From Acidobacteriota bacterium (GTDB lineage: Bacteria > Acidobacteriota > UBA890 > WLXD01): a DNA stretch of 14,267 nt. Shown here one piece after another: positions 7,839 through 8,647 of the stretch. The position numbers and the translations under genes are program-made. The notes under the pieces are model-generated. The model ran no database searches. It had not been told where the DNA came from and saw nothing but the letters and a program-made list of their open reading frames with translations. Within the stretch, counting starts at the first letter, position 1. The number at the start of each line of letters is the position of its first letter. Location: contig JACZXM010000025.1 in the NCBI GenBank assembly GCA_022571615.1, positions 1-14,267 of the forward strand, given 5' to 3'.

Positions 7839-7903
7839 GCCGAAGCCCGTCGAGCACAGGCTGGCGGGACACTCGACCCATACATCCGTCAGCGAGGTGG
7901 ATC

Positions 7904-8647
7904 ATGATCATCACCGGCGAGCTCGACCCTAGCGGTGCGGAACCGCAAGCGCTGCTCGAGGCCGCGGACTTCAACGATGCCCGGGTGCTCGAGATCGGCT
8001 GTGGAAAAGGTCGGCTGAGCTTCCGCTATGCGAAAGAGTCGCGGGCCGTCTTGGGCGTGGACCCGGAGGCGAAGGATCTAGCCTCGGCGCTTGCCGCGCG
8101 ACCTCGTCACCTCGCGGAGCGGCTCACTTTCGTGCGCGCGGCAGCCCTGGAGCTGCCCTTTCGGGACGGGTCCTTCGACATCGCCATTTTCGCGTGGTCC
8201 CTCTGATGACTGCCACATGAGGGCATGGTCGATGCCCTACGAGAAACCCGGCGAGTTCTCGCCGCCAACGGGACTCTCCTGGATCTGCGCCCGTTGTCGG
8301 TGAGATGCGACATCGAGGTCGTAACCCCCGTCCACGAGGTACCGATAGGCGAGGTCGACGCCACCGGCTACATGGCCGACGACCTGGCGGCCGATCGAGC
8401 CGCTCGTCAGGCTGTCGAAGCGGGATGGTTTGTTCCCCGGCGGGAGACGGTCTTCGACTTCGAGTTCTACTGGGACACGGTCGCCGAGATGAAGTCGTTC
8501 ATGGAGCAGAGCGAGCGCATGGGCGATGTCCGGCCGTCGTATGCGGACCTAGACAAGGCCTTCCGAGAACTGAGCGCGGCAGCCGCAGGCGGAGGCCGGC
8601 TCCGATGCAGAAGGCCGACGATGCTCGCTGCCTGTCGGAGGGCGTAG
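7904..8647 (+). CDS. SAM-dependent methyltransferase, probable selenoprotein with tandem UGA (Sec-Sec)
   Basis: Class I methyltransferase, 247 residues if two adjacent in-frame TGA codons (8204-8209, residues 101-102) are read through. The SAM-binding motif I is VLEIGCGKGRL (28-38), the acidic residue after strand 2 is Asp53 in VLGVDPE, and motif IV is FDIAIFAWSL (91-100). The UGA pair comes right after motif IV, at the end of strand 4, where class I enzymes place active-site residues. The same frame then continues LPHEGMVDALRETRRVLAANGTLLDLRP, the expected next helix and strand, and runs 145 codons to a TAG. From memory, related methyltransferases often have Cys-Cys at this spot (WSLCC). A hairpin at 8220-8238 fits a bacterial SECIS. 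The ATG at 7904 has GAGGTGG before it. Substrate unknown. If the UGAs are real stops, this is a broken gene giving a 100-residue fragment. Confidence 0.72.
8220..8238 (+). promoter_or_regulatory. Candidate bacterial SECIS hairpin
   Basis: AGGGCAT (8220-8226), loop GGTCG (8227-8231), ATGCCCT (8232-8238): a perfect 7-bp stem whose pentaloop starts with two G. A U8218-A8239 pair can be added below with G8219 bulged. The loop begins 17 bases after the second UGA and 20 after the first, inside the spacing known for bacterial SECIS elements, and GGUC is also in the E. coli fdhF SECIS loop. Its proposed role is to recruit SelB with Sec-tRNA during reading of the methyltransferase gene. It lies wholly in coding sequence. 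Confidence 0.6.

Follow-up and report, generated by a model that had tools for sequence, protein, structure and literature searches.

Adjacent in-frame UGA codons in a family of bacterial class I methyltransferases: candidate consecutive selenocysteines

The type case of a bacterial gene with an in-frame SECIS is fdhF of E. coli. Table 1 of a 2026 review, which states a total of 119 selenoprotein families and subfamilies, includes two kinds of protein that resemble the one described here (PMC13188914). First, the arsenite methyltransferase selenoproteins (NF008823, NF041536, NF041537) combine a class I methyltransferase fold with Sec; secondly, MduS (NF045649) has a methyltransferase domain and, by its table entry, two Sec residues. 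Consecutive Sec residues were reported in 2020 in the algal protein PDI_e, which has a GUGUU motif and which its authors presented as the first selenoprotein in which two Sec residues follow one another (PMC7539508).

The window, by which we mean the whole 14,267-nucleotide stretch of acidobacterial DNA that was analysed, contains a methyltransferase gene (Table 1) in which the TGATGA of 8204-8209 shares its frame with both the ATG at 7904 and the TAG at 8645-8647, and there are no further in-frame stops. The product matches Methyltransf_11 (Pfam) with an E value of 1.3e-17 over residues 29-125, a span that includes both UGAs, and it has the SAM-binding fold with motif I that is sought in a class I SAM methyltransferase. 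The initial annotation had proposed both this identity and a frame that stays open past codons 101-102 to the TAG, and the Pfam match and the translation bear these out. Relatives 29-58% identical to the window product keep either UGA or Cys at these exact codons, which argues that the pair is more than chance. We conclude with a probability of about 0.95 that the two adjacent UGAs of the window gene are read as two consecutive selenocysteines, and we infer from the comparative sequence data that the cell inserts Sec at both.

Table 1. Positions in the window of the methyltransferase gene, its two UGA codons and associated predicted signals.
Feature	Position	Strand	Evidence
UU-type class I SAM methyltransferase gene, 247 codons + TAG	7904..8647	+	Translation with UGA read through, Pfam, family alignments
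First predicted Sec UGA, residue 101	8204..8206	+	UGA in 58/61 members, Cys in 3/61
Second predicted Sec UGA, residue 102	8207..8209	+	UGA in 46/61 members, Cys in 15/61
AGGTGG, likely ribosome-binding site, 3 nt 5' of ATG	7895..7900	+	Predicted by reading the sequence
SECIS-like hairpin, window form (stem 8220-8226/8232-8238, loop GGUCG 8227-8231)	8220..8238	+	
Family consensus for the same hairpin	stem 8221-8227/8231-8237, loop 8228-8230	+	

UGA at the same site was looked for in other genomes and is found there, in a set of 61 non-redundant DNA members (76 loci less 15 re-fetched copies, L105, L157-L169 and L174). These comprise 43 UU, 15 UC and three CU members with no CC, where U and C denote UGA and Cys at the first and second sites. 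Together with five Cys-Cys proteins they are diverse, with a median pairwise protein identity of 29% and a minimum of 18%, and both sites are Cys or Sec in 66 of 66 sequences, an outcome that the search profile favours. The initial annotation placed Cys-Cys here in homologues, and the nearest sense-coded homologues do have it: of 48 close protein homologues examined, 45 carry Cys-Cys and three are fragments that start 3' of the two codons. At greater distance the two positions hold other residues in methyltransferases, such as the His-His of P0027, P0028 and P0037. On a tree of 64 rows, with the short L045 and L136 left out, the minimum number of changes is 9 for UC, 3 for CU and 2 for CC (13 in total), with several long branches and parts of the topology unsure. 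Because Cys replaces the second position far more often than the first (Sec in 46/61 versus 58/61 members), the first Sec is probably the less dispensable of the two. We note that L045 loses the family frame about 45 codons past its UU and lacks the N-terminal half, and is either an assembly error or a decaying gene.

A contig scan with a single protein as query returned no relatives; an alignment-based scan found five loci in MAGs, one from the Acidobacteria and four from the Chloroflexi, with the codon pairs UU, UC, UU, CU and UU. Among 396 genomes of the window's phylum, five (the window's included) have a match at E<=5e-44, all with two TGA codons, and the next match (E 9.5e-22) is without TGA. 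The Chloroflexi, the phylum of L043, yielded 52 matches at E<=1e-25 in 47 of 400 sampled genomes, all of them with one or two TGA codons. Only six candidates were scored per genome in both phylum scans, so Cys-Cys genes could have been missed; such genes were not excluded by design in the second phylum, because the profile contained Cys-Cys rows. The UGA pair and what appears by comparison to be one and the same RNA signal are met repeatedly, in dozens of bacteria that are only distantly related. Five genomes (G464, G487, G607, G769 and G787) have two family members each, and the G464 pair is about 4.9 kb apart on one contig.

The predicted RNA signal is a hairpin with a 7-bp stem that starts 11 nt past the second codon, its commonest form being GGGCAUG-GUY-CAUGCCC. 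Among ten members 95.7% of cells are paired and four pairs are changed on both sides; with all 61 members the pairing is 94.8% of 427 cells, and all seven pairs are changed on both sides. Both-side changes number 25 cells against a shuffled mean of 5.8, a value not reached in any of 500 shuffles, and sliding the partners leaves pairing in at most 62.8% of cells; the count of further pair types does not stand out, with 177 of the 500 shuffles as high. The innermost two bases of the stem do not pair in 20 of the 61 members, including the window, where the loop is consequently GGUCG, and the variant in L050/L173 (G342) is GAACGUC-GGU-GACGUUC. A SECIS search had been suggested for this region, and we used the published bSECIS rule: a loop of 3-9 nt, a stem of 4-16 bp, a G within the first two loop positions, a spacing of 16-37 nt and an energy of <= -7.5 (PMC13188914). 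Both window UGAs pass, at -10.6 kcal/mol and spacings of 20 and 17 nt, such that the covarying hairpin lies at the right distance from each. Under the rule as coded here, 57 of the 58 first UGAs and 45 of the 46 second UGAs pass, the two failures being in L111 and L128; as a control, 183 of 3599 TGA trinucleotides pass (5%; 21 loci, with the family UGAs not removed).

The peptide encoded by the hairpin, [GSE][MV]V[DH]A, occurs in 56 of the 61 UGA members versus none of 45 Cys-Cys homologues, and since it is free to vary where no UGA needs recoding, the constraint appears to be mainly on the RNA. Members with both hairpin and peptide off consensus (L173/L050 of G342, L138, L153, L119 and L125) have the variant peptides NVGD, SVGD, SVVD, GVVN and GAVR, and should be useful for SECIS work. 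Rfam gave no matches in the window at gathering thresholds, a hairpin pattern search of viral contigs found none, and tblastn against phage records gave no matches. A more distant methyltransferase, L036 (E 1.4e-7), is encoded on the minus strand of G079:C39, in a genome of the window's phylum with selB. It has Cys-UGA at the homologous site (DTFCUIPDK, UGA at about 1567-1569), with a hairpin, CUCUC-CGUGUU-GAGAG, that begins 12 nt past the UGA and misses the energy limit of the rule as coded here; genes of this type are possibly a second group of Sec-methyltransferases.

Protein-level constraint persists downstream of the UGAs. The initial annotation had suggested testing for a low dN/dS there, and it is indeed low: the window and L041 give 0.26, and six further pairs give 0.09-0.36; 5' of the UGAs it is 0.09-0.38 in the seven pairs. 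A search of about 5.8 billion proteins, in which 7,997 candidates were scored, gave 17 matches, the best nine of which are 136-156 amino acids long and include the window's own fragment; its length limit of 0.55x the query just admits C-terminal fragments and excludes N-terminal halves. The eight homologues (P0002-P0009) are 136-156-residue ORFs that all start at the Met directly after the UGAs, which is the pattern expected where gene callers met the same stops.

An AlphaFold2 model built on a 14-row family alignment, with Sec entered as Cys, has a pLDDT of 93.4, and the predicted fold is shared by many small-molecule methyltransferases, among them the nearest solved structures, such as TleD, AtmM and RebM; these are fold matches among the structures listed and show a common fold only. 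When the family profile is aligned with solved structures, its SLCC falls onto SLHH of AtmM and SLCH of TleD, in agreement with the earlier placement of the pair at the active-site end of strand 4. Class I methyltransferases have the end of strand 4 as part of the wall of their substrate pocket, and from this general layout we would place the pair at the site of methyl transfer.

We propose that a single bacterial-type SECIS hairpin downstream of the pair would be bound by SelB with Sec-tRNA(Sec), and that SelB would deliver Sec-tRNA(Sec) at the two UGAs in succession, so that strand 4 would end in two neighbouring selenocysteines. The resulting vicinal selenolates would lie beside the SAM methyl group in place of the His-His of AtmM, where they may act as ligand or nucleophile and so hold or activate a soft substrate (a metal or metalloid such as arsenic, mercury or tellurium, or a selenide or thiol) that is then methylated. 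Vicinal Cys-Sec motifs recur in SaoL, SaoC, HgcA and MbdU, as listed in the review table (PMC13188914), and the names of these proteins indicate metal or organometallic chemistry, which is indirect support for a soft-substrate role here. That the selenolates bind or activate a metal, metalloid or chalcogen for methylation is a tentative proposal, to which we give somewhat less than an even chance. We are slightly more hesitant about the fuller proposal of a vicinal bis-selenolate active site, with one SECIS recoding both UGAs and a selenium pair that chelates a metal or metalloid or relays the methyl group. We know of no bis-selenolate mode of SAM-dependent methyl transfer that has been described.

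The main rival to the soft-substrate role is that the Sec-Sec pair acts as a redox switch (diselenide or selenenylsulfide) or is structural, rather than a ligand or nucleophile for the substrate, with an ordinary small molecule as the methyl acceptor, and it is a serious contender, if also short of an even chance. A vicinal selenocysteine pair can form a cyclic diselenide, Cys-Cys versions of the site occur, and the nearest solved structures are small-molecule methyltransferases such as TleD, AtmM and RebM. However, the site aligns with residues at the active-site end of strand 4, and its restriction to Cys or Sec in all 66 sequences is stricter than anything in the C-terminal half.

It is improbable that only the first UGA is efficiently read as Sec, with the second acting as a brake or stop, such that the gene yields mostly a 101-residue fragment with a regulatory role. 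Tandem recoding is expected to be inefficient, and the second UGA is replaced by Cys in 15 of the 61 members; however, the 43 members that keep both UGAs include several deep branches, all but one of the 46 second UGAs are within SECIS spacing, and the part of the gene downstream is under selection.

The selenocysteine machinery is present in the window genome (3.2 Mb, 71% complete), where the initial annotation had suggested looking for it: selA, selB and selD score 536, 339 and 319 bits, and tRNA-Sec (selC) scores 68.3 bits with the anticodon UCA. Matches over cut-off were found in ten carrier genomes for selB (10/10), selA (8/10) and selD (9/10); the weaker selA and selD matches of G397 are pieces, and the selA match of G400 is only 48 bits. 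In the second phylum selB (E<=1e-70) is present in 44 of 47 carriers versus 263 of 353 non-carriers (Fisher p 0.0027, from two match lists compared by hand); a selB match at this threshold is absent from the carriers G444, G495 and G686. The selD match of the window genome (G000:C75, L103) is without an in-frame TGA, and the best selD matches in the nine other carrier genomes have one in-frame TGA each.

These data also bear on a reassignment of UGA (for example to Trp or Gly), or its read-through by a suppressor tRNA, in these lineages. Either would keep the frame open, and both are very improbable: UGA is still the terminator of 7 of the 12 window genes listed and of 16 of the 58 family genes whose end is visible, and so is not reassigned, it is exchanged with Cys only, and tRNA-Sec, selA, selB, selD and a SECIS-like hairpin are all present. 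We therefore reject reassignment. A pseudogene or sequencing error, in which two nonsense codons interrupt a dead or misread methyltransferase gene, has in its favour only the genome fragment itself, from a 71% complete MAG, and is rejected as extremely unlikely given that 61 members from many independent genomes share UGA at these codons, which makes a base-calling error very unlikely, and given the purifying selection past the UGAs and the covarying hairpin, as the initial annotation had judged in preferring recoding to two nonsense mutations.

Gene neighbourhoods were compared by clustering the ORFs of 45 loci, with the gene names below assigned by reading the sequences. In six second-phylum loci (L157, L158, L159, L167, L168 and L169) the gene immediately 5' of the methyltransferase gene, and on its strand, is alcohol-dehydrogenase-like, and the two perhaps form one operon; a uracil-phosphoribosyltransferase-like gene lies upstream in 10 loci, all of the second phylum. 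No selenium, arsenic or mercury genes were recognised among the recurring clusters listed, and the neighbourhood provides no functional support. In the window, a perfect 30-base inverted repeat (8703-8732/8784-8813) separates the methyltransferase gene from a convergent minus-strand gene and is perhaps a bidirectional terminator.

Recognition of these genes would enlarge the known selenoproteins by a family of considerable size, whose genes are split by gene callers so that the databases contain halves only. The active site occurs in nature in UU, UC, CU and CC forms, which offer a direct test of the role of each selenium atom, and of the decoding of two UGAs in a row by one SECIS. Should the ligand of the pair be a metal or metalloid, the family would point to a so far unrecognised way in which elements are methylated in the environment, in phyla with few cultured members.

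The suggestion that this methyltransferase family is not commonly listed among selenoproteins holds against the sources consulted. No NCBIfam family reaches its cut-off on the window product among the best 25 of 33 matches, and no UU motif was seen in Table 1 of the review, whose closest entries by name are MduS and the ArsM fusions (PMC13188914); the word 'methyltransferase' has no occurrences in the accessible text of the deep-Sep paper (PMC12013277). The UU methyltransferases are thus seemingly a so far unlisted selenoprotein family. The pair was initially described as very rare, which stands for bacteria in that no bacterial protein with consecutive Sec was found in searches of the literature outside subscription journals, and is qualified by the Sec-Sec of algal PDI_e, a eukaryotic protein of the PDI family, with a eukaryotic SECIS, that is not a methyltransferase (PMC7539508).

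The best NCBIfam matches of the window product are CpaM (NF043040; 56.3 bits, cut-off 180) and the DVU_1556 family (NF045667; 50.1 of 155 bits); both models are matched by 14 of 14 scanned family members at E<=1e-3, and their names are without Sec. MduS differs in its CxxU motif, as described in the review table (PMC13188914), and the window scores 31.3 bits on its model, below the 380-bit cut-off. MduS is over its cut-off in none of 347 genomes of the window's phylum, and its two weaker relatives there (E<=1e-40) read LYCMA at the position of the pair and score 26.7 and 9.0 bits on the UU-family model. The arsenite methyltransferase selenoproteins differ in having the motif UxxG (PMC13188914, Table 1); the window reaches 25.1 of 510 bits with ArsM/AhpD (NF041537), and 25.9 of 460 bits with the Methyltransferase/UXPK-star double selenoprotein (NF047649). 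AtmM and TleD (PDB 6uv6 and 5gm1) share the fold and the aligned site but are without Sec, and the sequence match is confined to the SAM-binding part. With the bacterial in-frame-SECIS genes, this family shares UGA/Cys exchange, SelA, SelB, SelD and tRNA-Sec, and a hairpin with G(U/G) opening a small loop 18-21 nt past the UGAs; it differs from them in that one hairpin would here serve two consecutive UGAs.
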